Assembly: GCF_021129155.1 (NCBI RefSeq) | Contig: NZ_JAJOMC010000007.1 | Coordinates: forward strand, 1-64,000 | Source: Arthrobacter sp. AK04 | Lineage (GTDB): Bacteria; Actinomycetota; Actinomycetes; Actinomycetales; Micrococcaceae | Direction of reading: 5' to 3' | Length of the DNA stretch: 64,000 bases | Shown: positions 45,020 through 61,537 of the stretch, in pieces | Position numbering within the stretch: the first letter of the stretch is position 1 | Layout: each line of letters opens with the position of its first letter | Position numbers and translations under genes: made by a program | The notes under the pieces: generated by a model | Database searches by the model: none | What the model was told of the DNA's origin: nothing | Seen by the model: only the letters and a program-made list of their open reading frames with translations

Positions 45020-45542
45020 ATGCTCAGCGCAAACGCGCGGCGCGAGGAGATCTACCACCTTGCCGTGACCACCGGCCTCGCTTCCGTGGAGGAACTCTCC
45101 GTCAAGTTCGAGGTAACAGGCGTCCACCATCCGCCGCGACCTGGCGCTGCTGAATTCGCAAGGGAAGCTGGCCCGGACATACGGCGGGGCGATGGCAGTG
45201 GGCGCGCACCCGGAGGCGTCGGTGCGGCAGCGCACGGGCGAGGCGTTCGAACAGAAGCACGCGATCGCCCGGTGGGCGGCGGCCGTGATCCAGCCCAGGG
45301 AGAACATCCTGCTCGACGCCGGTTCCAGAGCGGGTGCCCTGGCGCACGAGCTGCGCGGGTTCGGTCCGTTGTCTGTGACCACGCCTGGCATTAACGCCGT
45401 GCAGGAGCTGGCCGATTCCGAGGGCATCGGGGTGGACTGGTTGGGCGGCCGGCTCCGAGTTGTTTCGCAGAGTTTCGTGTGCCCGCTGGCCGAAGCGGCG
45501 CTGGAGCGGATGAGCTTCGACCGGGTGTTCCGGGGCGCCGAC
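45020..45542 (+). pseudogene. DeoR-family regulator, frameshifted and 3'-truncated
   Basis: From ATG 45020, MLSANARREEIYHLAVTTG begins a DeoR winged helix. At about 45117-45121 one extra G (GTAACAGGCG) shifts the frame; the recognition helix STIRRDLALLNSQGKLARTY and the rest continue in another frame to FDRVFRGAD at 45542. There the homology ends abruptly and antisense deaminase sequence begins; the second half of the sugar-phosphate sensor domain is lost. GAALDAGS-like ILLDAGSRAGAL near the middle is the typical DeoR ligand loop. Confidence 0.8.
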
Positions 45543-45845
45543 TCGCATCATGTCCACGCAACGCTGGTCATCCACCACCACGACATCAACCCCGCGTGAC
45601 CGCAACAGGTCCAGCTCGCCGTCGGACGTGCGCGCCTCCCCCACCACTACACGGGGGCGGATCGGCATTCTTGATGCATTCGTTTTGGCCGCTAGCGATG
45701 ACGACGCCATTGCGTTCGATTGCAGCAGTGATGGGCGTATCGTCTTCAGCCATGCCGCTTTGCGCGGTTTGATAGGCGGATTCGGATGCCGAAAGGTCGG
45801 CGCTGTCCAGCCTGCTGCCATAAGTTGAGGCTGCTCGTAAGTCAT
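45543..45845 (-). pseudogene. Nucleoside deaminase remnant lacking the zinc site
   Basis: From ATG 45845: MTYEQPQLMAAGWTAPTF, then a frame change near 45790 into ASESAYQTAQSGMAEDD, TPITAAIERNGVVIASGQNE and CIKNADP. Next, at about 45655, it jumps to VVVGEARTSDGELDLLRSRG and VDVVVVDDQRCVDMMR at 45543. The normal central part with the HAE and PCxxC zinc ligands is deleted and the C-terminal ~15 residues are missing. It therefore cannot be an active deaminase. Its end abuts the DeoR remnant base to base. Confidence 0.75.
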
Positions 45846-46278
45846 CGCGCTACTGATGCATGCACATGTGCGCTAGCGGCCCATCTACCGTCGGGGCCTT
45901 AGCGCAGGGCCTCGATGGTGACGCCCATTCAGTCCTTGAGGCTGCTCGCGGTGACTTCGAGTTCCTCCATGAAGACGTTCTGGGTCCTGCCCGCCCTGGC
46001 TGCGCCCCTCCCGGATCCTGCTGCCCCTGGCAGCCGGCCACCATCGCTTCCTCTGTTTGCCAAAGCGCCTTGAACAGGGCGTTGTGAGCCGACGGCCAAG
46101 AAAATCCGATGGTGCCGTGCAACAAACCCCAGTGTCGGCCCCCCTTTACTAGTGAGGCAGCTTTTACAAGCAGTCCCCGGCCAGCGGAAGCTGGTTGAAA
46201 CTTGCAACTGAATATAAAATTCATATCTACCGACCGTGCGGCCGAAGGCCCCACCGTCAGAAACGTAGGTTAGAGAAA
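45846..46278. other. Boundary region between decayed genes and island, no gene seen
   Basis: 433 bases. Open frames on both strands have no family similarity. An AT-rich patch near 46195-46230 (AATATAAAATTCATAT) is the likely promoter of the cassette that follows. No tRNA, integrase remnant or obvious attachment repeat was seen. Confidence 0.45.
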
Positions 46279-46773
46279 ATGATCAGCCCTGAAGTCCAGG
46301 CTGCTGTGGCCACCCTCCAGCAGCAAGCAGACGTCGCGAGGAAATCTCGCGACAGTTTTGAGCTCGACCGTGTCGAGCGCGCTCTCGACGAACTCGTTCG
46401 CAACCATACGAAGACCGGCAAACCTTCGCGCATGATTCGGAGCGCGCGAGCCAACGCATATAAGGTACTCAAAGACCGCGCAAGTTTTAATGCCTTCTCA
46501 CTGGATGCTCCTGAACTGCACACAGAAGCCAGAAGCAAAGCAGAAGCAAGCGCCTATGATGCCTACGCCGAGTTCGAGCTCCTTGACTGGCTAGCACATA
46601 CTTCTACTCTTAACACCGAACAGCGCGTCCTGCTCACTGCCGTCGCGCACGGTCACGACGTCACGTCCCTTGCCCTCGTAACCGGAGTTCCCCTCCAGCG
46701 TATGCGCGAACGTCTTTCTCGAGCCCGAAGGGCCGCCTTCAATGGCTATGCACTGGAGGTGGAGTGCATTTGA
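46279..46773 (+). CDS. Sigma-70 region 4-like helix-turn-helix protein
   Basis: 164 residues. The N-terminal two-thirds is helical and charged (VATLQQQADVARKSRDSFEL, then DRVERALDELVRNHTKTG). The C-terminal ~50 residues resemble a sigma region 4 HTH: LNTEQRVLLTAVAHGHDVTS, then LALVTGVPLQRMRERLSRAR, with conserved RLSRARRAA. There is no sigma region 2, so it is a DNA-binding regulator rather than a full sigma factor. I start at ATG 46279, where similarity in style begins; GGTTAGAGAAA precedes it. Its stop overlaps the mini-ORF at 46770. First gene of the GIY-YIG/GHKL cassette; a regulatory role is inferred. Confidence 0.7.
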   Translation: MISPEVQAAVATLQQQADVARKSRDSFELDRVERALDELVRNHTKTGKPSRMIRSARANAYKVLKDRASFNAFSLDAPELHTEARSKAEASAYDAYAEFELLDWLAHTSTLNTEQRVLLTAVAHGHDVTSLALVTGVPLQRMRERLSRARRAAFNGYALEVECI

Positions 46774-46880
46774 CACCGCGCAGATGTGCCCTTAAACCTT
46801 GGCTTATACGTACTCCAATTCCTACGGGAGCCATGGGTGCTTATGCCCTCGGGTCATCGAACACGGCGGTCTGTGCATGA
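46770..46880 (+). CDS. 36-residue mini-ORF, diverged copy of the GIY-YIG N-terminus
   Basis: TTG 46770 overlaps the upstream TGA, and GGAGGTGGAG lies five bases before it. It encodes TPRRCALKPWLIRTPIPTGA and MGAYALGSSNTAVCA, then TGA at 46878-46880, which overlaps the next gene's ATG (ATGA). It aligns without gaps to the first 36 residues of the GIY-YIG protein with 20 identities. In the shared ALKPWLIR block most DNA differences are synonymous (AAA/AAG, CCT/CCG, CTT/CTA, ATA/ATC, CGT/CGA), which suggests past or present protein-level selection. It may be a coupling leader peptide or a remnant of tandem duplication. Confidence 0.55.
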   Translation: MTPRRCALKPWLIRTPIPTGAMGAYALGSSNTAVCA

Positions 46881-47245
46881 CCAGCCGCAGATACGCCCTT
46901 AAGCCGTGGCTAATCCGAGCCCTAATCCCTGCCCATGTGATTGGAGCCTACGTCCTGTGGTCGCCCGAAGCCCCGGTGTATGTGGGCCGCAGCGACACGT
47001 GCCTCCGGCGACGACTCCTGGAGCACTCCCAGAACTGGCCGCACAGTTACTTCACCTACGACGTGGCCTTTTCAACGCATGACGCCTACACCATGGAATG
47101 CAGCCTTTTCCACGCGCTCGACCGTACCGCCAACATTGCCCACCCCCAGCGGCCACAGTCCGGCCAGCCGTCGTGTCCTTTTTGCTTCGGGGCCGTCAGA
47201 GCTGCCCGTGATGGCCGTCTCGAACTCCTGTTCATCTCCGCCTAA
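46877..47245 (+). CDS. GIY-YIG nuclease-like protein
   Basis: 122 residues. The GIY-YIG core is recognisable: GAY at 23-25, YVG at 35-37, an arginine helix LRRRLLEH at 43-50 and Glu74 in TMECSLFHAL, matching the catalytic Tyr, Arg and Glu positions of the superfamily. A C-terminal SCPFCFGA (CxxC at 100-103) may bind zinc. A single-domain nuclease of this size resembles excision or homing-type GIY-YIG cores with no added DNA-binding domain. ATG 46877 overlaps the mini-ORF stop. The GHKL ATPase begins 58 bases downstream and is probably in the same transcript. Confidence 0.72.
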   Translation: MTSRRYALKPWLIRALIPAHVIGAYVLWSPEAPVYVGRSDTCLRRRLLEHSQNWPHSYFTYDVAFSTHDAYTMECSLFHALDRTANIAHPQRPQSGQPSCPFCFGAVRAARDGRLELLFISA

Positions 47246-47303
47246 TCCAGCCATACCGCCCGGGCCGCACACTGCACCCCCGGCAGAGAAAGGAAGCATC
47301 GAA

Positions 47304-49082
47304 ATGACCGCCAACCCCCTTTTCCAGGCACCCACAACCGCCCACACCGACGAGGGCCGCACCTCGGCGCTCATTGAGGTCGACAAGGCACTCGAAAGTA
47401 TGCGCGATGCGGGCTTTGACCTGACAGCCGCTGCAGGCGAACCCATCGACAACTCGATCGAGGCCACTGCAAGCATCATCCGCATCGAGCCTAAGTACTC
47501 CAAAGACAAGAAGCACATCACCGAGCTCGCCTTTGCCGACAATGGACGCGGGATCGATCTGCCGGTCCTCGCCAAGGTCCTCAAAATGGGGTATTCCAGC
47601 CGGTACGGGCAACGGAAGGGGCTGGGCAGGTTCGGAGTCGGCCTTAAGCTGGCTGCCCTCAGCGTGGGCACACGCATCGAGGTTTACACCAAAACGGCCG
47701 ACAGTGACGCTTATCATCTCGCATACCTAGATCTGGCAGAAATCAGCGCCGGAACACAGACCGTGATCCGCACCGTCGAGGTCGCGGGCTGGCCTGCCGA
47801 TCACGTGGACCTGATGAAAGACCTTAAAGAAAAACCGTTTGAAAGCGGAACCCTCGTCCTCTGGAAGAAAATTGACCGGCTTTCTAGCGGCGGCACGTAT
47901 AGCGCCTCCCTCCAGACCAAGATCGATGACCTGCGCAAGTTCATCGCTCGGGTGTACCGCGAATTCCTGGACCAGGGCCTCCATATCGCCCTCGCTGGCA
48001 AGCCCGTGACCTTGCACGATCCGCTCTTCCTGCTGGATAATCCGCGCATCCAATCCCGTTACGGTAAGCGGGCGGACCTTACCCGAGAGCAGCTCAAAGG
48101 CAAGGTGATCGAAGAAACCGACCTCACCATTGACGACCACGACGTGCACGTCACTGTCTCCATCGCACCGGACATTTTCCGCCACGTGAAAGGTAAGGGT
48201 GGCGAGTTTGATCTGGACGGCAAGGAGATCCGCGAGTTTCAAATCAACCAGGAAAATGAGGGCCGCATCAGCATGATGCGGAATGGCCGTGAGATCTACT
48301 ACGACATCGTGCCTCGGATGCTTACCGGAGGTGTCACCGTTGGTGATCGTTACATCGGCATCGAGGTCTCCTTTCCTGCGGAGCTCGATGAGTACTTCCA
48401 GGTGCGCCATGTTAAGCGCGGAGCCGAACCCGTTAACAAACTTCGGGACGCACTCCGGGAGTGGTTGAAGCGACCCATCAGGCAGGCCCGTCGAGAGATC
48501 CGACACCACTGGGATATCGTACGCATCACGCAGCAGTCTGAAAGCGTCGATGGCCGCGCCCCTGAAATTCAGGAGGCGATCGACCGCGCGGAGCAAACTA
48601 CTCTCCGAGGTCAAGCGGGTCTGAGCCTTACTGCAAGTGAGGAATCCGAAAAGATTGCGAAGATCCTCGACGAGATGGACATCGACCCCGAGGCCGGTGC
48701 GGACAGGGCAGACGAAATCCGTAGCCATATCGCCGAGCACCCGATGACGATCCTCGACGGCAGTTGGCCGAGCAAAGAGATGATGGCCATCGACCACCTC
48801 AACGGCAAGGTCATCCTCCGGCTCAACCACCGGCACCCATTCATCAGGGATATCTATGACGTGCTGCGAGAAACCGGCGACAAAGCCTACGACGAGCAGC
48901 AGCCCGCTGACATGCACGGCCTTATCCGCCGCACTTCCATGGCACTGGACATGCTGTTCTTCGCCTACGCCAAAGCCGAAAACCTCCATCGCGAGCCTGA
49001 GGAGATGTTTACGGATCTCCGTGGTTACTGGGGGCAGCACACCCAGGCCTACATGAAAGAACTCGAAAAGTACGAGGAGTAA
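47304..49082 (+). CDS. GHKL-superfamily ATPase (MORC/Hsp90/MutL-like)
   Basis: 592 residues. The GHKL (Bergerat) site is complete: N-box EPIDNSIEA with Glu46 and Asn50, G1 box ADNGRGI at 79-84 and G2 GLGRFGVGLKLAALS at 106-120. Residues ~120-390 form the transducer-like domain (a Lys-rich FESGTLVLWKKIDRL stretch and FQINQENEGRISMMRNGREI). The C-terminal half is long helical and charged. It resembles stand-alone prokaryotic MORC-type ATPases found next to restriction genes. It probably clamps DNA on ATP binding. ATG 47304 follows AAGGAAG. A classic terminator follows at 49111. Confidence 0.82.
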   Translation: MTANPLFQAPTTAHTDEGRTSALIEVDKALESMRDAGFDLTAAAGEPIDNSIEATASIIRIEPKYSKDKKHITELAFADNGRGIDLPVLAKVLKMGYSSRYGQRKGLGRFGVGLKLAALSVGTRIEVYTKTADSDAYHLAYLDLAEISAGTQTVIRTVEVAGWPADHVDLMKDLKEKPFESGTLVLWKKIDRLSSGGTYSASLQTKIDDLRKFIARVYREFLDQGLHIALAGKPVTLHDPLFLLDNPRIQSRYGKRADLTREQLKGKVIEETDLTIDDHDVHVTVSIAPDIFRHVKGKGGEFDLDGKEIREFQINQENEGRISMMRNGREIYYDIVPRMLTGGVTVGDRYIGIEVSFPAELDEYFQVRHVKRGAEPVNKLRDALREWLKRPIRQARREIRHHWDIVRITQQSESVDGRAPEIQEAIDRAEQTTLRGQAGLSLTASEESEKIAKILDEMDIDPEAGADRADEIRSHIAEHPMTILDGSWPSKEMMAIDHLNGKVILRLNHRHPFIRDIYDVLRETGDKAYDEQQPADMHGLIRRTSMALDMLFFAYAKAENLHREPEEMFTDLRGYWGQHTQAYMKELEKYEE

Positions 49083-49110
49083 GTCAAAGCGGCCTGGAAA
49101 TTCTCCCGTG

Positions 49111-49149
49111 AGAACTCCCCAGGGGCGTTGAGCCTTTGGGGAGTTCTCT
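49111..49149 (+). terminator. Intrinsic terminator of the cassette
   Basis: GAGAACTCCCCA (49111-49122) pairs exactly with TGGGGAGTTCTC (49138-49149), followed by TCTTTGTTTTTG, a genuine U tract. It closes the sigma-like/GIY-YIG/GHKL unit. Confidence 0.9.
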
Positions 49150-49230
49150 CTTTGTTTTTGTAAGCGGCCGATCGTCCGGCACCCGTAGGCAGCCGCAATT
49201 TTCCGGGATGCGGTTGGGTATTCTGTCGAA

Positions 49231-49488
49231 ATGACAAACGTTGAAGAAGCTCGGTTCACTCAACCCTCCCACCCCTACACCAAGACCGTTCACCTGCCGA
49301 AGCCGGATGGGTCGACTCGCGATGAGAGTATTTTGACGGCGGAGGCCGAGGAAAAAGTCCTGAGTGAGTTGTCCGCTAACGAGTATGTCCAGCAGCGTGT
49401 AGGTATAAGTTACAGGTCAATGGGCAACAGGGTTATTTGGGACGTCTCGTTTCAGATTGGCCTCCAAATGGATGCACCGGAGAATTAA
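49231..49488 (+). CDS. Small hypothetical protein (85 aa)
   Basis: Soluble, acidic protein of 85 residues: MTNVEEARFTQPSHPYTKTV..., a helical stretch TAEAEEKVLSELSANEYVQQ and an amphipathic strand end RVIWDVSFQIGLQM. I recognise no domain. It sits between two intrinsic terminators and so is a monocistronic gene with its own promoter, in the AT-richer 49160-49230 stretch. The ATG at 49231 has no strong ribosome binding site. Confidence 0.6.
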   Translation: MTNVEEARFTQPSHPYTKTVHLPKPDGSTRDESILTAEAEEKVLSELSANEYVQQRVGISYRSMGNRVIWDVSFQIGLQMDAPEN

Positions 49489-49502
49489 CAGCTTGAAAAC
49501 CC

Positions 49503-49532
49503 AAGAGCCGGTCCCCATCAAGACCGGCTCTT
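49503..49532 (+). terminator. Intrinsic terminator of the 85-residue gene
   Basis: AAGAGCCGGTC (49503-49513) pairs with GACCGGCTCTT (49522-49532), followed by CCGTTTTC. Fifteen bases after the stop. Confidence 0.88.
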
Positions 49533-49659
49533 CCGTTTTCCCCGGCAAACCCAGCATCCGCTCATTCTGTCCATCTGGACTTGAGGCGGCAGGCCCGTCC
49601 CAGGCGTGGAGGGGCCGGGGGTGACGTGAGGGGAGTCTGACGGTTGTACGGTTAACCTC

Positions 49660-50634
49660 ATGCCTTCCCAGAGCGCGGTTTTTGTTGATGCCGGCTTCCT
49701 CCTCGCGGTCGGCGGGACCCATGTGGCGGGGACTTCGATCCGGTCCGCTTTCCGGGGTGAATTACGAGAAACTCATCCAAGGCATTCTGAAGCGCACCGC
49801 TGAGCACCCCGGTCTCGACGTGCTGCGGGTCTACTGGTACGACGCCTCAAAGGACGCCCTGTTCACCGACCAGCACAAGTCGATCGGACTGCTGCCGGAC
49901 GTCAAGGTGCGCCTGGGAAGGATCTCTTTCAACGGGGAGCAAAAAGGCGTTGACCTCAAGCTCGGGCTGGATCTGGTGGGAGTGGCCCGCAACCGCGCGG
50001 CCTTCACCGCGTTCCTGGTCTCCGGCGACGATGACCTCGCCGAAGCGGTTGAGGAAGCCCAGGACCTGGGCATGAAAGTCGTCCTGGTCGGCTTAGACAA
50101 CCCCGATCATCGCCTCGGTGTACAGTCCGTCGCAGAGCATCTGGCCCTGCGGGTCGACAGCATCATCGCCCTCCCGGCATCCCTCATCGAAGAGTGCTTC
50201 ACTAAGTATGTAGCGGAGGAACCGCGGCCGATACCAGCCCTAACGGTCAAACCTCCGGTACCAGTCGCCAAGGCCCCCGCCCCGGGGCCGCGCCGCCACG
50301 GAAACGAATATTCCTCCCCGGATACCGAGGCCCGGACCGAGGCCCGCTTCGTATACAGCTCAGGCGGGTACGGACCGGACTTTCTTCCCGCGGACGACAA
50401 TCCCGTCGACGTCGCCTTCGATGTCGGAGAAAGCATGGCGGCCAGCTGGTACGGCACGGTCACCCAGGGAGAACTCAACGATCTCCTCGCCGACCGCCCT
50501 ATCCTGCCCACTGACATAGACCGTGTGCTCCTCAAGACTGCGTCCAGCGGATAGGCGAGTACAAGACGGACCTGCAGGGAGTACGCCGTGCCGTGCGCGA
50601 GGCGTGCGGGACGAGTCTGGAGCAGTTGATCTGA
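49660..50634 (+). pseudogene. NYN-domain (LabA-like) protein with two compensating frameshifts
   Basis: From ATG 49660, PSQSAVFVDAGFLLAVGG gives the first NYN acidic residue (Asp10). At a run of four G (49754-49757) one extra base shifts the frame; the domain continues as VNYEKLIQGILKRTAEHP, VYWYDASKD, LKLGLDLVGVA and FLVSGDDDLAEAVEEAQDLG with the remaining acidic residues. Near 50545 a missing base (GCGTCCAGCGG) restores the first frame, giving RIGEYKTDLQGVRRAVREAC and a stop at 50632. The two shifts cancel, so the total is exactly 325 codons. NYN proteins are metal-dependent RNases. Sequencing error or recent decay. Confidence 0.7.
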
Positions 50635-50902: not shown

Positions 50903-52123
50903 TCATAGGAGCTGCCCCTTCTCTCTTGGCAAGTGTTCCAGCAGCCCGCGAAGCCGCCGCGCAATCTCCTCATACGGTATCTTCGTCGTCCCTGGTCCCC
51001 ACGAGAGGCGGAGCGCTCCTTCCACCCGGCTCTGCGGGAACCCCGCGGCGGATAGCACATGGCTATGTTCATAAGCTTGGGAAGTGCAGGCAGACCCGTT
51101 CGACAGCGCCACAATGTCCTTCAGCGCTACGATCGCCGCCTCTGAATCGACGCCTGGAATCGATACGTTAAGAGTGCTCGCAACCGTCCGGTCAAGATCA
51201 CCATTCAGTTCGGCACCTAGTGGCGTCAAGGCCGTAAGAAATTGTTCCCTGATCTCCATAGCGTGTTGCATCCGCTGCTTGGCTTCTTTCAGGGCCAGGG
51301 CTGAGGCTGTACCTAACCCTGCTATAAGGGCGACAGGAAGGGTACCAGGGCGAAGGCCCCGTTCCTGTCCGCCGCCGAACATCAGCGGCCTAAGGGGGAT
51401 GCGTTTGTAGCCTCGTCGTCGGCAAATGAGGGCACCGATCCCTTTTGGACCGCCAATCTTGTGACCAGAAACAGCAAGAAGATCGATGCGCGCGTTCCGT
51501 AGCGGCTCGATCAGCTTTCCAAATGCTTGGGCGGCATCCACATGGAAGTATGCCTCATGGTCATGCAGCACGTCAGCGATTTCTTGAAGCGGTTGGATTA
51601 CTCCGGTCTCGTTGTTGACGGCCATAACAGAAACCATCAACGTATCTGGTCGTAACGCGGCTGCGACAACTTCAGGCGCTACCCAGCCACCTTCGGTGGG
51701 TGGCAGCAATTCGACGTCGAATCCTCGTGCTCGCAAGACCTCGAGAGGCTCGAGGACCGCCTTATGCTCGATTTGTGTCGAGATGATGTGGCGCTTGCCG
51801 CTAGCCTCCCCGTGTGCAGCTAGCCCTAGAATCGCAAGATTGTTGCTTTCCGTAGCGCCGCTTGTAAAGATTACTTCGTCGAGTTGAGCGGCTACGACCG
51901 CGGCGAGTTCGCCTCGCGCCTGCTTGACGCGCTCTTTGGCGCGCTGCCCGTAAGAATGGGTCCTGCTGCCGGCGTTGCCAAATTCGAAGGCCATGTATGT
52001 CATGACTTCTTCTGCGACCCTTTGATCAACGGGGGCAGTGGAGTTGAAATCCAAGTAGACGGGCGATGTTCCTGCTACAAGCGACGAAACAGCTGCGATG
52101 TCAGGGGTAGGCACTACGTTCAT
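50903..52123 (-). CDS. dndA: Cysteine desulfurase DndA
   Basis: PLP-dependent desulfurase of 406 residues that takes sulfur from cysteine and passes it to DndC for DNA phosphorothioation. PLP lysine Lys222 in SGHKIGGPKG, the preceding HVDAAQAFGK near 195, the substrate loop NNETGVIQPL near 170 and the active-site Cys346 in SNGSACTSQ. IscS/NifS-like overall; the divergent dndBCDE genes make DndA the best name. Start at ATG 52123; the frame is open to 52327 across the promoter region without similarity. Confidence 0.92.
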   Translation of the reverse strand: MNVVPTPDIAAVSSLVAGTSPVYLDFNSTAPVDQRVAEEVMTYMAFEFGNAGSRTHSYGQRAKERVKQARGELAAVVAAQLDEVIFTSGATESNNLAILGLAAHGEASGKRHIISTQIEHKAVLEPLEVLRARGFDVELLPPTEGGWVAPEVVAAALRPDTLMVSVMAVNNETGVIQPLQEIADVLHDHEAYFHVDAAQAFGKLIEPLRNARIDLLAVSGHKIGGPKGIGALICRRRGYKRIPLRPLMFGGGQERGLRPGTLPVALIAGLGTASALALKEAKQRMQHAMEIREQFLTALTPLGAELNGDLDRTVASTLNVSIPGVDSEAAIVALKDIVALSNGSACTSQAYEHSHVLSAAGFPQSRVEGALRLSWGPGTTKIPYEEIARRLRGLLEHLPREKGQLL

Positions 52124-52154
52124 GTCTAGTACCCTAACCCAAAGTACGGATGCC

Positions 52155-52205
52155 TGTTTGGATCCTTTACCGCGTGTTGTTTGGATCCAAGGATCCATAC
52201 ATGAT
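52155..52205. promoter_or_regulatory. Repeated GGATCC palindromes in the dndA-dndB promoter region
   Basis: TGTTTGGATCC occurs twice (52155-52165, 52178-52188), 23 bases apart. TTGGATCCAA at 52181-52190 is a perfect palindrome and a third GGATCC follows at 52191. A possible dndB promoter is TTGTTT (52177-52182), 17 bases, CATGAT (52200-52205), placing the palindrome between -35 and -10. A repressor (DndB in some systems) may bind here. Confidence 0.45.
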
Positions 52206-52216
52206 AGAAACGACGT

Positions 52217-53371
52217 ATGACGCAAAAGAGGCCTGACCGAGAACTCTCGGGCGCCGGAACCGGAAGCGCAAAATCTGGCGAGTTCGAGTACGTCTTTCCC
52301 GCGATCCGTGGCGTGCAAGCGGGACACGAGTACTTCGTGACCATGTGCCCGCTGCGGATTGTCCCACGCCTCTTCGTTTATAACGAAGAAGAATTGCCCG
52401 CAGAGATGCGGGCGCAGCGTTCCCTTAATAAAGCCCGAGTCCCCGAGATGGCCCGCTACATTGTGGAGAATCCGGACAGCTATATCTTCTCAGCACTTAC
52501 TGCCTCCGTGAACGCCGACGTGCGGTTCGAGTCGCCGCTGGGAGATACTGGTCCCGCTGAGCGTGTCGGTACTTTGACAGTTCCCATGTCAGCCACCTTC
52601 GTAATCAACGACGGGCAGCACCGCCGCGCTGCCATTCAACAGGCTCTGGCCGAAAATCCAGCTTTGGGTGACGAGACCATCGCAATCGTCATGTTCATTG
52701 ACGTCGGTTTAAGCCGCTGCCAACAGATGTTCGCTGACCTGAATCGATACGCGATCAGGCCTGCAAAGTCGATCGGCGTGCTCTATGATCACCGTGATCC
52801 TATGGCCGCTATAGCAAGGCTCGTGGTGTCCCAAAACCCGGTCCTCAGCGACTTGACGGAGATGGAGAGCAGTAACCTGGCCCCCCGGTCCCGCAAGCTG
52901 TTCACGCTATCTGCACTGCACACAGCTACGAGTGCCTTGCTAAACGAGATCAAGCCGGATTCGTTGACTGAACGCGTCGATCTTGCTGCCGAATTCTGGC
53001 GCCTCGTCGCTAGCCAGTTCCCGCTGTGGCAGCAGGTCTACCGCGGCGAAGTCACTGCAGGGGAAGTGCGTCAGGACTTTATTCACACCCACAGCATTGC
53101 TTTGCACGCGCTGGGCCGGGTCGGCAACACCCTGCTCCGCGAGAGCCCGGTTCCGTCCACATGGGAGGATCGCTTGGAAAAGCTGCGCACCATCGATTGG
53201 CACCGTAAAAATGCTGATACCTGGGAAGGCCGCGCGACAAACGCCGGCAAGGTCAGTAAGAGCCGCACCAACGTGGAACTGACTACCGCATACATTCGAA
53301 CTGCACTTGGCATGCCGCTGCCCCCTGACGAAAAGCGCGCCGAGGATGCTTTTACCCGAGGAGAGAAATGA
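52217..53371 (+). CDS. dndB: DndB, DGQHR-domain regulator of phosphorothioation
   Basis: 384 residues with the diagnostic NDGQHRRAAI motif (DGQHR at 132-136) after VPMSATFV, and a helical C-terminal half. DndB is not needed for sulfur insertion but represses dnd genes and affects which sites are modified in studied systems. It opens with a disordered polar stretch, then FEYVFPAIRGVQAGHEYFV. Start ATG 52217. Its stop overlaps the dndC ATG (ATGA). Divergent from dndA across 93 bases with repeated palindromes. Confidence 0.93.
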   Translation: MTQKRPDRELSGAGTGSAKSGEFEYVFPAIRGVQAGHEYFVTMCPLRIVPRLFVYNEEELPAEMRAQRSLNKARVPEMARYIVENPDSYIFSALTASVNADVRFESPLGDTGPAERVGTLTVPMSATFVINDGQHRRAAIQQALAENPALGDETIAIVMFIDVGLSRCQQMFADLNRYAIRPAKSIGVLYDHRDPMAAIARLVVSQNPVLSDLTEMESSNLAPRSRKLFTLSALHTATSALLNEIKPDSLTERVDLAAEFWRLVASQFPLWQQVYRGEVTAGEVRQDFIHTHSIALHALGRVGNTLLRESPVPSTWEDRLEKLRTIDWHRKNADTWEGRATNAGKVSKSRTNVELTTAYIRTALGMPLPPDEKRAEDAFTRGEK

Positions 53372-54912
53372 CGACGATCAGCCTGCCGATCCGCCCCAAG
53401 ACACGGTCCGCCTTCGATGATCTCGGTTTCGCCGCTACGATTGACGCGCTTGTGGCCCAGACCCAGCAGCTGTACCTGGCTGACGGCGTACCGTGGGTTG
53501 TGGGATATTCGGGCGGCAAGGACTCTACCGCGACCCTCCAGATCGTCTGGCTCGCGCTGAAGGGCTTAGAACCAGAGCAACGCACGAAACCAGTGCATGT
53601 CATCAGCACGGACACACTCGTGGAAAATCCTGTGGTTGCCGCGTGGGTGTCCCACTCACTTGAAGTAATGGCCAAGGCTGCCGAAACCGACCACTTGCCG
53701 ATAACTCCGCATCGACTGACACCAGCGGTGGCGGACACATTCTGGGTGAACCTCATCGGTCGCGGCTATCCGGCACCTCGACCGAAGTTCCGCTGGTGCA
53801 CCAACAGGCTGAAGATCAAGCCCTCGAATGCTTTCATCCTCGAGACGGTGCGCTCCCATGGCGAGGCAATTTTGGTGCTTGGTACCCGCAAGGCTGAAAG
53901 CTCGGGACGGCATGCTCGGATGTCAGCCCTCGAGTCCCGGCGGGTTCGTGACCTGCTCAGCCCTAACGAGTCCCTTCCGAACACCCTTGTCTATTCGCCG
54001 GTTGAGAACTGGTCGAACGACGATGTCTGGACATTCCTCATGCAATCGACCAATGCTTGGGGCTACTCCAACAAGGAGCTGCTCACTATGTACCAGGGCG
54101 CTTCGGCCGACGGTGAGTGCCCACTTGTCGTGGATTCGTCGACGCCCAGCTGTGGTAGCAGTCGCTTTGGATGTTGGACCTGCACGCTTGTCGAGCAGGA
54201 CAAATCAATGGCAGCCATGATTCAAAACGACGAAGAGAAGGAGTGGATGTTGCCCCTTCTGGAACTCCGCAATGCTCTCGATGTCGCGGATGACCGTCAC
54301 CTCAGGGACTTCCGTCGAATGAACGGCTCGGTGCAACTCTTCCATGACCGGCCGATTCCGGGACCGTATAAGCAGTCTGCCCGTGAAGACTGGCTGAGGC
54401 GCTTACTGGAAGCTCAAGTCTGGATCCGCGAGAACGGACCAGACTACGTCCGCTCTCTAGAACTTGTGACATTGGCCGAGCTTGAGGAAATCCGACGAAT
54501 TTGGGTTGTTGATAAGCACGAATTTGAGGACCGTCTTCCCGGTCTGTATCAGGCCGTGGTTGGAGAGCCATACCCTGGCAGAGCGCTTGACGAGCATCTT
54601 CCCCTCGGACCGGACATGATCGAGTCCCTGCAGCAGGTGGTTGGAGAAGATCGCCTTCATTTCGAGATGGTGCGTGAGCTTTTGGACATTGAGCAGCGCC
54701 ACCGGTCCCAGGTACGGCGCGCTGGTCTATTTGAGTCGCTGGAAAAAGCTCTTCGTCGTGGTTTCTATGACGATGAAGAGGACGCCACACTTCGGGCGCA
54801 GAAGCGAAAGACGGCCATGGATCGGTCTGAGCAGGATACGGAACTAGGTGACCCTGACCCACTCGACATCGCCGATGGATACGTCCGGGCCGTTTCGGAG
54901 CCGGCGTCGTGA
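53368..54912 (+). CDS. dndC: DndC, sulfurtransferase of the phosphorothioation complex
   Basis: PAPS-reductase-like ATP pyrophosphatase of 514 residues that activates DNA phosphate for sulfur addition. PP-loop SGGKDST at 48-54. Cysteines for an Fe-S cluster: KFRWCTNRLK near 151, then GECPLV, CGSSRFGCWTC near 262-272. A specific stretch NDDVWTFLMQSTNAWG lies near 219. The C-terminal part after ~300 is helical and acidic. Translationally coupled to both neighbours (ATGA with dndB, overlapping GTG with dndD). Confidence 0.95.
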   Translation: MTTISLPIRPKTRSAFDDLGFAATIDALVAQTQQLYLADGVPWVVGYSGGKDSTATLQIVWLALKGLEPEQRTKPVHVISTDTLVENPVVAAWVSHSLEVMAKAAETDHLPITPHRLTPAVADTFWVNLIGRGYPAPRPKFRWCTNRLKIKPSNAFILETVRSHGEAILVLGTRKAESSGRHARMSALESRRVRDLLSPNESLPNTLVYSPVENWSNDDVWTFLMQSTNAWGYSNKELLTMYQGASADGECPLVVDSSTPSCGSSRFGCWTCTLVEQDKSMAAMIQNDEEKEWMLPLLELRNALDVADDRHLRDFRRMNGSVQLFHDRPIPGPYKQSAREDWLRRLLEAQVWIRENGPDYVRSLELVTLAELEEIRRIWVVDKHEFEDRLPGLYQAVVGEPYPGRALDEHLPLGPDMIESLQQVVGEDRLHFEMVRELLDIEQRHRSQVRRAGLFESLEKALRRGFYDDEEDATLRAQKRKTAMDRSEQDTELGDPDPLDIADGYVRAVSEPAS

Positions 54913-56882
54913 TTCTGAATGAACTCGTCCTGCATAACGTAGGCACCTTTGCCGGGCGTCACGTCATTGACCTAACTCCGCCCTCAGCAGACAGACCGAT
55001 CGTGTTGATCGGCGGACTGAATGGCGCCGGGAAGACCACCTTTCTGGAGTCCATCCAGTTGGCGCTCTACGGCTCACTCGCGCACGGCACAGGACGGCGT
55101 GCCGGGGGCTACGAAAACTATCTCCGGGGCCTGATTCACCGTGGCGTTCCTGTGAGTGAAGGCGCTGCCGTCGAACTTACCTTCACTGCACATCAGGAAG
55201 GAGAAGAGCACAGCTATACGCTGCGTCGCAGCTGGAAGAGCGCGGGCGCCTCGATCCGTGAACTCCTTCTGGTTTCAGTCGACGGTCGGTACGACCAGTC
55301 ACTGACCTCAACTTGGAGCGAACACGTTGAGACGTTCCTCCCCCGAGGTATCGCCGGGCTCTTCTTCTTTGACGGCGAGCAGATCGAGGCCCTCGCCGAT
55401 ATGGACCGTTCCCGCCAGGTGCTCAGCTCTGCCCTTGCCGCGCTACTTGGTCTTGATCTCGTGGAACGGCTCAGCACAGACCTCACCGTCCTCAAACGTC
55501 GCCACAGGGGCGAGAAGGTCCCCGACGGTCTGCGTCAGAGCGTCGAAGAGAAAAACCAACTGCTAACAGCCAGCCGCCAAGCTGAGGAAGCTGCAGTCCA
55601 AGCCGAGGCAGGTCGCCGGACCGAAATGGAGCGCCGGCAGAAGGTCCTCCATGAAGCAACCGAAGCGTACCGCGCTGCAGGGGGCGATCTTCTGGATCGG
55701 CGCGAGTCGGCGGAAGCAGCTGCAGGCATCGTGCGCTCCGGTCTCGCGCAGTGTGAGGAGCAAATTCGGCACGAAATTTCGGGGACTTCCCCCTTGCTGC
55801 AACTCGATGAACTACTTGACCAGTTGGGCGACCAGGTGCGCCGGGAAGCGCATGCCGAGCGGAACGCCCTGATGGTCGAGGCTTTCGAAGCGCGTGATAC
55901 TGCTGTGCTCCAGGAGCTTCGAGGCACCAACGTGGAGGCGGCTACGGTTGCTGCGGTCGAACAGTTCCTCAGGGGCGATCGAGAAGGGAGGCGCGTCTTC
56001 GCAGATGCCGAGGAAATCATCGGATTCCGCGATCCATCAGGGTTGGAAGCCCTGCTGGCGAACCTCCCGGAAGCACGCAAACGCCTACAATCGGCTGTCG
56101 CTCGGAGGGAAGAACTCAAGGCTGAGCTGGACCAGGCTGAGCGAGTCCTGGCTGCCATTCCCGATCCAGAAGCGCTGGCCCCACTCCGTCAGCAGCGTGA
56201 GGATGCTCGCAATGGATTCCTTCGAGCCGAGGCAGCCCACGCGGTTGCACTAGAACTGGTCGCGTCCACTCGCGCGGGCCGCGCCAAAGCCAGCACGGCT
56301 TACGAGGCTGCGCTGGACAAGGCGGCCTCGGTAAATCTGGCTGCCGACGACGATCGACGGCTGGTTGAGCACGTCGATCGCGTCCGTGCGACGTTGGAGG
56401 ATCTGCGCGTTGCCGCAGCACGTCGGCATCTCAAGCGAATTTCGCAGTTGATCCTTGAGGCACTCGGCATGTTGCTCCGCAAGGAGAAGCTCATCACCGA
56501 TGTTCAGATAGACCCTGAGACGCATGAGGTGTCGCTCACCGGTGCAGACGGTCGGACGCTTCCCGCCAAGGACCTTTCCGCCGGGGAACGGCAACTTCTG
56601 GCGGTGGCACTCCTATGGGGGCTGGCCCGTGCATCGGGCCAGCCGCTTCCGGTCGTAATTGATACGCCGCTCGGTCGTCTCGACGGATCCCACCGTGAGC
56701 ATTTGCTGGAGCGCTACTTCCCAAATGCCAGTCATCAGGTGGTGCTGCTCTCAACCGACACCGAGATCGACGAGGAGGCCTTCGCCCGCATCTCCCCCCA
56801 CACTGGCCGCACATATCACCTCGAATTCGACGCCGGTGCAAATGCCACGCGCGTCGAAACCGGTTACTTCTGGGAGAAATAA
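54909..56882 (+). CDS. dndD: DndD, SMC/RecF-like ATPase
   Basis: 657 residues. Walker A GGLNGAGKTT at about 35-44, hallmark IRELLLVSVDG and FFFDGEQIEALADMDRSR near 150, long coiled coils with high Ala/Glu/Arg content (about 190-540), then the LSAGERQLLAVALLWGLARA signature near 557 and the VVIDTPLGRLDGSHR Walker B/D-loop region. Walker B lacks the usual Glu after Asp, as is normal for DndD. It provides ATP-dependent DNA opening or nicking in the modification complex. GTG 54909 overlaps dndC; the stop overlaps dndE. Confidence 0.94.
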   Translation: MILNELVLHNVGTFAGRHVIDLTPPSADRPIVLIGGLNGAGKTTFLESIQLALYGSLAHGTGRRAGGYENYLRGLIHRGVPVSEGAAVELTFTAHQEGEEHSYTLRRSWKSAGASIRELLLVSVDGRYDQSLTSTWSEHVETFLPRGIAGLFFFDGEQIEALADMDRSRQVLSSALAALLGLDLVERLSTDLTVLKRRHRGEKVPDGLRQSVEEKNQLLTASRQAEEAAVQAEAGRRTEMERRQKVLHEATEAYRAAGGDLLDRRESAEAAAGIVRSGLAQCEEQIRHEISGTSPLLQLDELLDQLGDQVRREAHAERNALMVEAFEARDTAVLQELRGTNVEAATVAAVEQFLRGDREGRRVFADAEEIIGFRDPSGLEALLANLPEARKRLQSAVARREELKAELDQAERVLAAIPDPEALAPLRQQREDARNGFLRAEAAHAVALELVASTRAGRAKASTAYEAALDKAASVNLAADDDRRLVEHVDRVRATLEDLRVAAARRHLKRISQLILEALGMLLRKEKLITDVQIDPETHEVSLTGADGRTLPAKDLSAGERQLLAVALLWGLARASGQPLPVVIDTPLGRLDGSHREHLLERYFPNASHQVVLLSTDTEIDEEAFARISPHTGRTYHLEFDAGANATRVETGYFWEK

Positions 56883-57277
56883 TGCCGATCGAACACATCC
56901 GTTTGTCCCAGACAGCAAGGGACCAGCTCATCACGCTGAAGCGCCGCACGGGAATCCAGCACTGGAATGTCCTCTGCCGCTGGGCCCTCTGCCGTTCACT
57001 GGCCGAATCTGCCGCCCCGCCGACTCTCAGACTTATCCTGGACAGCAACGTTGAAATGAACTGGCGCACCTTCGGAGGCGACTTCGGCGACGTCCTCTGG
57101 GCACTGGTGAAGCTCCGCTGCCACAATGATGGCCACCCATCAGACGAGGAGACACTGGCGCAGCAGTTCCGGCTTCATCTGCACCGGGGTATCAGCTACC
57201 TTGTCGGAGACCCGCGGTCCGCTGATGTTGCTGGAATGGCCAGTATCGGCCTGAATGAGTCGCCGGCCACGACATGA
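56882..57277 (+). CDS. dndE: DndE, DNA-nick-binding subunit
   Basis: 131 residues, the small DndE protein that forms a complex with DndC and DndD and binds nicked DNA. It has the family start MPIEHIRLSQTARDQLITLK with RTGIQHWNVLCRWALC, the LRLILDSNVEMNWRTFGGDF stretch and the C-terminal LAQQFRLHLHRGISYL. ATG 56882 shares one base with the dndD stop, and its TGA overlaps the methyltransferase ATG. A C-terminal tail beyond LVGD is longer than in typical DndE (~110). Confidence 0.92.
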   Translation: MPIEHIRLSQTARDQLITLKRRTGIQHWNVLCRWALCRSLAESAAPPTLRLILDSNVEMNWRTFGGDFGDVLWALVKLRCHNDGHPSDEETLAQQFRLHLHRGISYLVGDPRSADVAGMASIGLNESPATT

Positions 57278-58722
57278 TTGGCACGCCCGTAGCACGTCAC
57301 AAGACGGCGCTCCGGCGCACCGGTCTCTCCCGGCCGATATCAATGGCTCTTGCAGACGGCTTATTGATTCCTGACGGTACAGTGTTCGACTACGGCTGCG
57401 GCAAGGGCGACGACATCCGGCACCTTCGAACCCTCGGTTATGCCGTCGACGGATGGGATCCGGTGCACCGCCCAAATGTGGAGCGACGCTGTGCCGAAAT
57501 CGTGAACCTGGGTTATGTTCTCAACGTCATCGAGAATCAGGAAGAACGTGCCCAAACTCTGCATTCCGCGTGGGCTCTCGCAACCGGGTTGCTTGTAGTG
57601 TCCGCTCGCATGACGTGGGATGGCCGAGACCTCGCCGGACGCCCCCTCGGGGACGGGATCATCACGCGCATGGGCTCATTCCAAAAGTTCTACGAACAGG
57701 CCGAACTAGCCGATTGGATCGAACAGACACTCGCCGTCAAACCATACGCCGCTGCCCCGGGCATCTTCTACGTGTTCCGAGACGAAGCGGCAGCACAACG
57801 TTTCGTGGCGTCAAGGGTATACACCTACCGGCCACGCATCACGATCGACCCCCATGTCCTCTACGAAGAGCATCAGGACACACTCGCTCCCCTTCTGTCC
57901 TTCATGCAGGCGCATGCCCGCGCGCCCCGGCAGATCGAACTACGGCAAGACGAACTCCTGGCGATTCAGGAGGCATTGGGCAGCCTCGGCCGCGCCGAAC
58001 ACCTGATTCGGCAAGTCACCTCGGACAACTATTGGGAACAGGTGGCTGCCCGGCGGCGAGCCGAACTCCTCATCTATGTGGCACTGTCCCGGTTTGGCCG
58101 CCGACCTAGTTTTTCCCAGCTGGACAGGGCCTTGGCGACCGACGTTCGAACGCTCTTCGGGCCGTATCGGGAGGCATGCCTACAAGCCGATCGACTTCTC
58201 CTCGCATGCGGCGACCAAGCAAAGCTCTATGTGAGCGCCCGAAGTTCCAAAATCGGGAAACAGACGCCAAGTGCGCTCTACGTGCACCATTCCGCTATGG
58301 CCAAAATCCCGCCCATACTCCAAGTCTACGAGGGGTGTGCACGGGTGCTTGCTGGTACGGTTGAGCACGCCAACATGATCAAGCTTTCGGTAGCAGAACC
58401 ACAAGTCTCATATCTCAGCTACCCCGACTTCGACCGGAATCCGCATCCGACGCTGCAGTCGGCCACCACGGTCAACCTCCGGAAGTTAACTGTGGAATTC
58501 CGGGACTACAGCCGTTCTGAGAATCCGCCGCTCCTTCACCGCAAGGAAGAGTTCCTGGCCCCGGACGACACAAATCGAATTCGGTACGAGCGCCTAACAC
58601 GGGCAGAGATGAAAGCCGGCCTTTACGACCATCCTGAGCGGATCGGAACACTCAAAGGGTGGATGGAGACGCTCGAGGCCGCCCGCGTGAAGGTTCAAGG
58701 GCACCGCCTTGTTCGTTGCTGA
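57274..58722 (+). CDS. DNA phosphorothioation-associated putative methyltransferase
   Basis: 482 residues. The N-terminal part has the family start VARHKTALRRTGLSRPISMA, and FDYGCGKGDDIRHL near 37 is SAM motif I, followed by GYAVDGWDPVHRP. Residues ~85-110 contain the NVIENQEERAQ motif. The C-terminal two-thirds has no known enzymatic motif that I can see. This is the methyltransferase family that recurs next to dnd operons; its target is unknown. ATG 57274 overlaps dndE (ATGA), so it is the fifth gene of one coupled unit. The stop lies within a strong terminator. Confidence 0.88.
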   Translation: MIGTPVARHKTALRRTGLSRPISMALADGLLIPDGTVFDYGCGKGDDIRHLRTLGYAVDGWDPVHRPNVERRCAEIVNLGYVLNVIENQEERAQTLHSAWALATGLLVVSARMTWDGRDLAGRPLGDGIITRMGSFQKFYEQAELADWIEQTLAVKPYAAAPGIFYVFRDEAAAQRFVASRVYTYRPRITIDPHVLYEEHQDTLAPLLSFMQAHARAPRQIELRQDELLAIQEALGSLGRAEHLIRQVTSDNYWEQVAARRRAELLIYVALSRFGRRPSFSQLDRALATDVRTLFGPYREACLQADRLLLACGDQAKLYVSARSSKIGKQTPSALYVHHSAMAKIPPILQVYEGCARVLAGTVEHANMIKLSVAEPQVSYLSYPDFDRNPHPTLQSATTVNLRKLTVEFRDYSRSENPPLLHRKEEFLAPDDTNRIRYERLTRAEMKAGLYDHPERIGTLKGWMETLEAARVKVQGHRLVRC

Positions 58723-58807: not shown

Positions 58808-59278
58808 CTACCACTTCACCCCGCCGAGGAGTTCGTCAACGCTCATGGGCTTGATGCCGCCCTCCTGGGCCAAGGCATTAGTCACCACATCGAGCACGAC
58901 CAGCGACGCCGTCTGACGACGGGTGTTGATCTGCTCCTGGATGTACTCCAGCCCACCGTTGGCGTACTCCTCGAAGATCCGAATCCGTTCCTCAAGACGA
59001 ACGGCGTCGAGAATCTCGGGGTCATCCGAAACGGCATCGACAGCGATCATGCTGATCAAGGAATCACTGTAGGCGGGACTGGTCAGCACTTCCAATCGGA
59101 TGCCCTCCCCCGCTGATCCGTTTAGCGGAACCCGCCGGTCCTGGCTCCATCCAACGGCGGCAGCGAAGAGCAGAACGTCGCGGTAAGTTGTAAAGCCGGC
59201 CTCAGCCTGCAACACCTCGATAAGCACGGCGTGCTCTTGGGGGCGCCGCGCACGAACATCAGTCTGTGAGCTCGTCAT
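58808..59278 (-). CDS. dnd system-associated small protein (family 4 type)
   Basis: 156 residues. HAVLIEVLQAEAGFTTYRDV, LLFAAAVGWSQDRRVPLN and LISMIAVDAVSDDPEIL match the small protein family annotated as dnd system-associated protein 4; no catalytic motif. A helical C-terminus (RIFEEYANGGLEYIQEQINT). ATG 59278 overlaps the upstream SMC-like stop (ATGA). Last gene of the second dnd operon. The family name is from memory of family patterns. Confidence 0.75.
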   Translation of the reverse strand: MTSSQTDVRARRPQEHAVLIEVLQAEAGFTTYRDVLLFAAAVGWSQDRRVPLNGSAGEGIRLEVLTSPAYSDSLISMIAVDAVSDDPEILDAVRLEERIRIFEEYANGGLEYIQEQINTRRQTASLVVLDVVTNALAQEGGIKPMSVDELLGGVKW

Positions 59279-61335: not shown

Positions 61336-61496
61336 GGCAGAATCTCCTTGACTACCGTGAGCAAATCATCTGTTGCGTCGTATGTGGACAGGTGCATTTT
61401 CGACCTCTCGATCTCCAGGACTCGCTTCAACAGGTGCTTCTCCTCCTCGGTCAGTTCATCTAGCACCTGGCGCTCGTTCCGTGCCTCAGCCATCAT
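61332..61496 (-). CDS. 54-residue protein of the second dnd operon
   Basis: Short, highly charged helical protein (EARNERQVLDELTEEEKHLL, then KRVLEIERSKMHLSTYDATD). ATG 61496 follows AAAGGAGGGAGC, one of the best ribosome binding sites in the window; a second ATG is directly after. Overlaps the SMC-like gene by four bases. I recognise no family; the position inside a tightly packed operon and strong RBS make a real function likely, perhaps as an adaptor. Confidence 0.72.
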   Translation of the reverse strand: MMAEARNERQVLDELTEEEKHLLKRVLEIERSKMHLSTYDATDDLLTVVKEILP

Positions 61497-61537
61497 GCTC
61501 CCTCCTTTCAGGTTCCTTTGCATTTGTCACTTGGCTA

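Follow-up and report, generated by a model that had tools for sequence, protein, structure and literature searches.

A three-gene cassette encoding a helix-turn-helix (HTH) protein, a GIY-YIG nuclease and a GHKL (MORC/MutL-like) ATPase is, almost beyond doubt, associated with DNA phosphorothioation (PT) systems, and it is probably an accessory effector of PT systems of the Dnd type. The cassette was found in a stretch of 64,000 nucleotides from Arthrobacter sp. AK04 (contig NZ_JAJOMC010000007.1 of assembly GCF_021129155.1), referred to here as the window. An original prediction made from the sequence had described these genes as a candidate defence or DNA-processing module. The conserved cassette and its defence context were borne out, but the module was not shown to be self-contained, because its presence tracks that of PT genes.

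Distribution of the cassette and its link to phosphorothioation genes

Relatives were sought in a species scan that used one genome per species and two peptide patterns from the GHKL alignment. The scan returned 13 loci, nine of which are close relatives (49-81% identity), with hosts in Arthrobacter, Acrocarpospora, Streptomyces, Embleya, Frankia, Mycobacterium asiaticum, Catenulispora, Sphaerisporangium and an actinomycete metagenome-assembled genome (MAG). These nine, the window, a Nocardiopsis plasmid (L031) and L123 make up 12 core loci, with L002 and L037 counted once as the same locus; the two-pattern scan missed at least one carrier (L123), and the core set is incomplete. Across the actinobacterial core loci, identity to the window is 32-62% for the HTH protein, 38-69% for the GIY-YIG protein and 50-81% for the GHKL protein. 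The three genes recur in the same order on the Nocardiopsis plasmid (34%, 46% and 51% identity by blastp for HTH, GIY-YIG and GHKL, respectively) and in several other actinobacterial families, which argues that the cassette is not a chance arrangement.

The original prediction had proposed to look for co-occurrence outside the Micrococcaceae, and the order HTH-(GIY-YIG)-GHKL is indeed kept in distant actinobacteria. The HTH gene precedes the GHKL gene in 12/12 core loci, so that gene order is conserved, and a GIY-YIG gene is located between them in eight (the window, L031, L037, L038, L041, L042, L043 and L123), so that adjacency of the GHKL and GIY-YIG genes is not rare. In the other four (L039, L040, L045 and L049) no GIY-YIG gene stands in this position; in one of these, Catenulispora (L045), it is found at the opposite flank of the dnd locus, together with a second GHKL gene. 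The cassette itself is rare. A core-type GHKL gene was present in 1/396 genomes of the phylum sample, this being the window's own, with the other 10 matches far weaker, and the cassette was present in 1/219 genomes of one large-genome genus.

The original prediction had named repeated co-occurrence near defence genes as support, and this was observed. Within fetched stretches of 10 to ~22 kb, dnd genes were present at 9/12 core loci (8/11 without the window). Control loci around other GHKL genes had no dnd genes (0/32, made up of 0/21 from the window's family, 0/9 from the phylum sample and 0/2 MZA plasmid loci). The family loci are the 21 strongest, besides the window and L002, from a search in which 51/295 family genomes had any GHKL match. 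Two phylum-sample loci with Ssp genes (L084 and L087) were set aside from the control loci, and three distant GHKL loci lacking PT genes (L033, L048 and L098) were used in the tree and stood on neither side of the Fisher test.

At the level of whole genomes, dnd genes were found in all 10 carriers examined besides the window, nine of which have DndC, and L043 has DndD/DndE at a contig end; the Nocardiopsis locus, available as a plasmid record only, is not in this count. For L038 and L040, whose fetched loci lack dnd genes, these are located on a different contig of the genome. As a baseline, DndC was present in 2/395 other Actinomycetota genomes of the phylum sample and in 6/219 genomes of the large-genome genus; these six include the sole cassette carrier of the genus, in which DndC and the GHKL gene share a contig, DndC coming first by 3.6 kb. 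Among genomes with other GHKL ATPases DndC was present in 0/29, or in 1/31 when G409 and G556 are included (G556 has DndC). Fisher tests gave p = 3e-7 for the loci (9/12 versus 0/32) and p = 2e-18 for the genomes (10/10 carriers, with L043 counted by DndD/DndE rather than DndC, versus 2/395); both p-values treat loci as independent, and although carriers span many genera, several control loci are near-copies of each other.

Three loci show the arrangement most closely. In L123, the HTH-GIY-GHKL genes begin ~300 bases after dndB-C-D-E, and both cassette junctions are 4-base overlaps. In M. asiaticum (L042), the cassette is located between dndBCDE with its methyltransferase gene and pbeCA. In Catenulispora, the dnd genes are bracketed by HTH and GHKL on one side and by a conserved leader, GIY-YIG and GHKL on the other (L149, 1685-3976), the latter set containing a second GHKL gene, having no HTH gene and ending ~60 bases from dndE. 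These layouts argue for a functional tie to dnd.

Gene organization, proteins and the conserved leader

The cassette and its flanking elements in the window are as follows.

46213-46290, plus strand: conserved 5' leader element (RNA model R1), present in 12/12 core loci
46232-46258, plus strand: leader core hairpin GAC.GUG.GGCC-GAA-GGCC.CAC.GUC, just upstream of the HTH start codon
46279-46773, plus strand: HTH protein gene, 164 amino acids (aa), with a putative C-terminal sigma-70-region-4/LuxR-like helix-turn-helix and a conserved N-terminal region
46770-46880, plus strand: 36-codon remnant with a TTG start, a diverged partial copy of the start of the GIY-YIG gene, still open in frame
46877-47245, plus strand: GIY-YIG nuclease gene, 122 aa, with conserved GxY..YVG, R, H, E and N residues and a C-terminal CPFC
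47304-49082, plus strand: GHKL (MORC/MutL-like) ATPase gene, 592 aa, with an S5-type transducer and an extra C-terminal region of ~180 aa
49110-49148, plus strand: intrinsic terminator-like stem-loop with a T-rich tail, from the terminator scan

The junctions named in the original prediction were all confirmed in the sequence, in one direction: the 36-codon open reading frame (ORF) overlaps the stop of the HTH gene (TTGA), the GIY-YIG gene overlaps the stop of the 36-codon ORF (ATGA), and the GIY-YIG and GHKL genes are spaced by 58 bases. The predicted terminator is likewise present, with a 17-pair stem followed by TCTTTGTTTT; a scan of the region returned four terminator-like sites against 2.8 expected, of which this one has by far the longest stem. 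A scan of the cassette region gave no match to a sigma-70-type promoter.

Four coding units had been proposed. Four co-directional ORFs do exist, but that at 46770-46880 is only a truncated GIY-YIG copy, so that the cassette has three genes and no fourth component. The ~34 residues with which the GIY-YIG protein begins are repeated in this 36-codon ORF (69/105 aligned bases identical), which matches the GIY-YIG profile (E 7.3e-5) and ends ahead of the catalytic YVG-R part. The closest relative, Arthrobacter sp. CAU 1506 (L002/L037), is without this ORF, and its HTH and GIY-YIG genes overlap directly. Synonymous divergence (dS) between the ORF and the window's own GIY-YIG gene is 3.2, exceeding the value of 1.0 between the GIY-YIG genes of the two genomes, so that a recent tandem duplication is improbable as the origin of the ORF, although the comparison is weak, with so few codons (36). 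Judged from its sequence, it is probably a recombination scar between cassette alleles. The three genes are under purifying selection relative to CAU 1506, with ratios of nonsynonymous to synonymous divergence (dN/dS) of 0.25 for HTH, 0.21 for GIY-YIG and 0.05 for GHKL, at dS values of 1.0-2.4 of which that for GHKL is near saturation.

The domain assignments of the original prediction were supported by conserved residues, profiles and fold matches. The GHKL protein matches Pfam HATPase_c_3 (E 4.7e-17), and its Bergerat motifs (E..DN, DxGxG, GxxG and GT) are invariant in 12/12 aligned sequences, 11 core proteins and L044 (E46, D49, N50, D79, G81, G83, G108, G111, G113 and T183). A profile search of solved structures returned MORC2 (E 1.7e-8), MORC3, topoisomerase VI B and MutL. 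Over residues ~24-401, the structural model matches Morc3 (Z 20.5, root-mean-square deviation (rmsd) 3.9, 299 aligned) and MutL (Z 17.1, rmsd 3.8, 289 aligned), and the predicted architecture is a GHKL domain followed by an S5-type transducer, as in MORC/MutL-type ATPases. The C-terminal ~180 residues are partly conserved within the family, and Pfam found no histidine-kinase dimerisation domain in this protein.

In the GIY-YIG protein, residues Y25, Y35, G37, R38, R46, H50, E74 and N86 are invariant in 8/8 aligned sequences; we take the catalytic set to be the GIY and YIG tyrosines, the following R and H, E and N. The window protein scores 14.5 bits against Pfam PF01541, below the curated cut-off of 22.6, and 3/8 family members reach this profile at E <= 0.01 (best 1.3e-4). 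The structural model has a predicted local distance difference test (pLDDT) score of 86 and matches the UvrC GIY-YIG domain (VIA Z 8.9, rmsd 2.6, 79 aligned), as well as I-TevI and R.Eco29kI, with a best Foldseek E of only 0.012. The C-terminal CPFC motif and conserved histidines may bind zinc, as judged from the residues alone. The HTH protein has weak matches only: Pfam Sigma70_r4_2 at E 0.016, below the cut-off, a profile that 0/11 family members match at E <= 0.01, and, as best PDB profile match, HTH regulators (E 0.034).

The leader consists, in order, of an ACAACTnnATA-like sequence (in most loci), a hairpin of 2-4-pair steps with single mismatches between them, and the start codon. In an alignment of 11 sequences 99.1% of cells pair, and 5/11 pairs change on both sides. 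The covariation score was reached by 0/500 shuffles and the number of further pair types by 71/500. When the partner was slid by 1-3 columns, pairing fell to 35-50%, and the true score is above all slides. Individual folding z-scores are modest (-0.1 to -2.1). The covariance model matches all 12 core loci, including L123 (E 2e-8), which was outside the training set, and matched nothing at E <= 1 in the other 58 of the 70 loci searched. Rfam gave no match in 45800-49700 at E <= 1. The conserved leader is part of the cassette unit and may be an RNA hairpin or a palindromic operator. Covariation of both arms fits an RNA hairpin; a palindromic operator changing with its protein could look alike.

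Each of the 11 carrier genomes has one leader copy, except M. asiaticum and Catenulispora, which have two, and the window genome has one at E <= 0.1. A weak match in G904 (C4:17184) with a genome-search E of 0.039 was accepted only because it lies before GIY-YIG and GHKL genes. The second copy in M. asiaticum (L042, 19132-19207) precedes an unrelated 144-aa gene in the PT locus; the gene divergent from the latter encodes a protein of 792 aa that contains sigma-70 region 4. This copy suggests a small regulon.

Proposed function and alternative explanations

Since the cassette is found almost only in actinobacteria with dnd genes, it is probably a weapon or helper of PT defence, and its genomic context leads us to favour such an effector or helper role. 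As dimers with bound ATP, GHKL ATPases of the MutL and MORC type close on DNA, and nucleases then take over; GIY-YIG enzymes cut DNA strands. We propose tentatively that the MORC/MutL-like clamp ATPase gates the GIY-YIG nuclease. In such a mechanism, the GHKL protein would dimerise on ATP like MORC/MutL, close on DNA, and sense the presence or absence of PT marks on the DNA it holds. On unmarked phage or plasmid DNA, it would license the GIY-YIG protein to nick or cut, and on host DNA the PT marks, or ATP turnover there, would release the clamp. The HTH protein and leader hairpin could hold the GHKL/GIY-YIG pair under tight or inducible expression. Precedents are the DndI ATPase, which is stimulated by PT and thereby freed from self DNA (PMC11662687), and VcSduA, which joins a GHKL ATPase to a nuclease (PMC12137116); here and below, published work is cited for the parts of each source that were covered.

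Besides the independence assumed in the p-values, several observations weigh against this reading. The Nocardiopsis plasmid record has no DndC, the chromosome being outside that record. Most dnd-positive genomes lack the cassette, including 5/6 DndC genomes in the large-genome genus and the other two DndC genomes of the phylum sample, of which G685 has no GHKL match and G556 only distant GHKL genes. Whole-genome searches of the drafts for L039, L040 and L049 returned no GIY-YIG gene of this family, so the GHKL protein cannot always need it, and the nuclease is an optional member of the cassette. A restriction gene is already present in many carriers, with PbeA in 8/11 of those examined as genomes. 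No PT-binding domain was recognised in the cassette proteins, and the GHKL model has a mean pLDDT of 76 and a predicted template modelling score (pTM) of 0.60. Among distant relatives, the Nostoc genome of L048 has no DndC, and 7/31 rows on the PT-linked side of the GHKL tree (see below), including L033, L048 and L098, come from fetched loci devoid of PT genes.

Three carrier genomes (G783, Frankia and Catenulispora) gave no PbeA match, and there the cassette could be the sole restriction-type module. A search for DndFGH in these three gave no match, and none was found in any control genome either, so the search is uninformative. Each of the 11 carriers has GIY-YIG or PbeA (three without GIY-YIG, three without PbeA and none without both), a pattern with a chance expectation of 34% from which no claim is made.

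It is unlikely that the cassette is an independent defence system hitchhiking in the same islands, with the HTH, GIY-YIG and GHKL proteins acting alone in abortive infection or restriction. The plasmid copy without DndC, the fetched loci of L038 and L040 without dnd genes, and the variable gene order relative to dnd would fit such independence, but dnd genes are present in all 10 other carrier genomes, including those two on another contig, against a background of 0.5-2.7%, DndC is present in only 1/31 genomes with other GHKL genes, and related GHKL genes adjoin Ssp genes. A housekeeping role, in which a MutL/UvrC-like pair carries out DNA repair or trimming at PT sites or keeps self-damage by the Pbe effectors in check, is less likely still; it draws on the resemblance of the GHKL protein to MutL and of the nuclease to the UvrC domain, and on the co-occurrence with PbeA, yet PbeA is missing from the matches in three carrier genomes and the sporadic distribution of the cassette is commoner for defence than for repair genes. 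Finally, a regulatory unit in which the HTH protein and leader control the PT island, the GHKL protein being a signal-transducing ATPase and the nuclease incidental, is very improbable: the optional GIY-YIG gene and the further leader copies, which precede another gene at the PT locus of M. asiaticum and GIY-YIG and GHKL in Catenulispora, would suit it, but the GHKL protein keeps its ATPase motifs and MORC/MutL transducer with no kinase dimerisation domain in Pfam, and no leader copy before dnd genes was among the matches in 70 loci.

In one studied strain, PT marks only 10-15% of its sites (PMC11662687), and this partial marking raises the question of how PT effectors spare self DNA, most of which is unmarked. 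A persistent clamp that lets go on meeting the rare PT sites would answer it naturally, and three small genes would suffice to test this. Such a clamp would also link bacterial relatives of the MORC silencers of eukaryotes to one particular mark on the DNA backbone. The conserved leader is usable as a genomic tag for these loci.

Relatives, known systems and neighbouring genes

On four plasmids, the neighbours of GHKL relatives at ~25-30% identity are SspC, one or both of SspB and SspD, a DEAD/DEAH helicase and a phospholipase-D (PLD) nuclease: Treponema (SspB and SspC, with no SspD match), Hymenobacter (SspB, SspC and SspD), Planktothrix (SspC and SspD, the record ending ahead of SspB) and Pannonibacter (SspB, SspC, SspD and a cysteine desulfurase). 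Plasmids of four phyla (L096, L097, L099 and L100) thus share a combination of a GHKL ATPase with Ssp genes, a DEAD helicase and a PLD nuclease, and this recurrent combination has the look of a separate PT-linked effector set. Two Flavobacteriales MAGs have GHKL relatives beside SspA and SspC/D, an Acidobacteria MAG has one beside SspA or SspC/D, and relatives on Photobacterium and Vibrio plasmids are near DndC-like genes that score below the DndC cut-off. In Nostoc (L048), a truncated GHKL gene is followed by a GIY-YIG gene, and in L044 (an Acidobacteria MAG) a GHKL gene is followed by the C-terminal half of one.

In a GHKL tree of 59 rows, the 12 core proteins group as a single clade (100/100). 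This clade belongs to a side of 31 rows, which also comprises all nine Ssp-linked and three DndC-like-linked rows and the seven with no PT genes in the fetched locus. The other side holds 28 unlinked rows, including the MZA loci L035 and L036; the root is the midpoint, so that the tree shows grouping and not direction. A broader idea, which we hold with some reserve, is that MORC/MutL-like ATPases are a shared, so far unrecognised PT-reading component of bacterial PT immunity, combined with GIY-YIG, a sigma-like HTH protein and a leader in actinobacterial Dnd systems, and with an SF2 helicase and a PLD nuclease in the Ssp systems of other phyla. On this view they would form a further class of PT-dependent effector, with an ATP-driven clamp related to MutL and eukaryotic MORC that tells backbone-modified self from unmodified DNA.

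Among mobile elements, 53 plasmid records had a GHKL match, 12 of which were examined, chosen by rank and interest. The GIY-YIG search of plasmids returned the protein itself and one weak archaeal-plasmid match. Phage records gave three distant GHKL matches. The two-pattern scan of viral contigs found no GHKL relative, the GIY-YIG protein had no match in phages, and a viral or plasmid origin of the cassette was rejected on these grounds.

The original prediction knew of no named system with this gene set, and none in PADLOC, NCBIfam or Pfam fits the cassette. At E <= 0.1, no Dnd, Pbe or Ssp models were among the PADLOC matches of the three proteins, the coverage of each family in PADLOC 2.0 not being confirmed; the GIY-YIG protein weakly matches candidate system PDC-S14 (E 0.012-0.055). 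A literature search for PT together with GHKL, MORC, paraMORC or GIY-YIG gave no description of the cassette among the matches listed, supplementary tables being outside its scope. The kin of the cassette are PT-linked effector modules and MORC-type restriction ATPases.

The prokaryotic MORC/paraMORC proteins of restriction operons (Iyer et al. 2008, PMC2292703) are likewise GHKL and S5-type ATPases encoded with nucleases in a DNA-modification context. The covered main text of that paper has no occurrence of GIY-YIG, phosphorothio, PAPS or DndB, and reports an SFII helicase in ~70% of MORC neighbourhoods, whereas here a helicase is found beside the distant relatives and not in the core cassette. 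URI (GIY-YIG) nucleases occur as stand-alone genes at Dnd boundaries and were proposed as backup or suicide effectors (Rakesh et al. 2024, PMC10853773), in a main text whose covered part does not mention GHKL, HATPase, MORC, MutL or sigma factor. The MZA system shares a GHKL ATPase (MzaB) and a sigma-70-type partner (MzaA in NCBIfam naming), but the window GHKL protein scores 77.7 bits against an MzaB cut-off of 850, no Z1, PD-(D/E)XK or AIPR protein was found among the seven right neighbours and ten left ORFs of the cassette, and the loci in which these are annotated (L035 and L036) are on the other side of the GHKL tree.

PbeABCD, DndI, SspE, SspFGH and DndFGH are also restriction modules paired with dnd or ssp modification genes (PMC6459918, PMC11662687, PMC8092258), but they are built of PLD/helicase, SMC-like, FtsK-like, Walker-A or DUF1524 parts, and the covered portions of these reports mention no GHKL ATPase. 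SspFGH was rejected as a counterpart of the GHKL protein, its parts being described there as Walker-A and FtsK-like. VcSduA, a Shedu protein (PMC12137116), resembles the cassette in that its GHKL ATPase is proposed to control a nuclease in phage defence; it differs in being a single fused gene with a PD-(D/E)XK nuclease, with no PT link mentioned in the part of the source covered. A Streptomyces 'SspH HATPase regulator' (PMC9137472) was set aside, as GIY-YIG, phosphorothio and Dnd were absent by term search from the portion of that paper available to the search.

The cassette had been placed at the start of a defence-rich island, which agrees with its neighbours in the window. No defence family was found in the ten ORFs scanned to its left, which include a DeoR C-terminal fragment and a polyketide-cyclase-type protein, and this puts the cassette at the island edge. 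The fragment (45192-45599) matches only the C-terminal sensor domain of DeoR regulators and lies amid overlapping short ORFs, as a decayed gene. To the right are, in order, an NYN gene, dndA, dndB, dndC, dndD, dndE, a methyltransferase-like gene, pbeC and pbeA.

50903-52327, minus strand: DndA/SspA cysteine desulfurase of the partner system (PADLOC SspA E 2e-132, DndA E 6.5e-128)
52217-57277, plus strand: dndB, dndC, dndD and dndE, partner PT genes, from profile matches
57274-58722, plus strand: PT-associated putative methyltransferase (TIGR04096)
59275-63670, minus strand: pbeC (59275-61335) and pbeA (61538-63670), PT-linked restriction genes, from profile matches

A small ORF between pbeA and pbeC (61336-61540, minus strand) is the size of PbeB, which has 66 aa in the described system (PMC6459918). 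At the PbeD position, 58808-59278 on the minus strand encodes a 156-aa protein without a Pfam or PADLOC match, and genes related to it adjoin pbeC in L039 and L042. The NYN-domain protein is encoded between the cassette and dndA (49682-50554). In the 11 other core loci, as far as fetched, neither this gene nor an 85-aa ORF at 49231 has a homologue, and they are therefore not counted in the cassette. In L037, a PIN-domain gene directly follows the GHKL gene.

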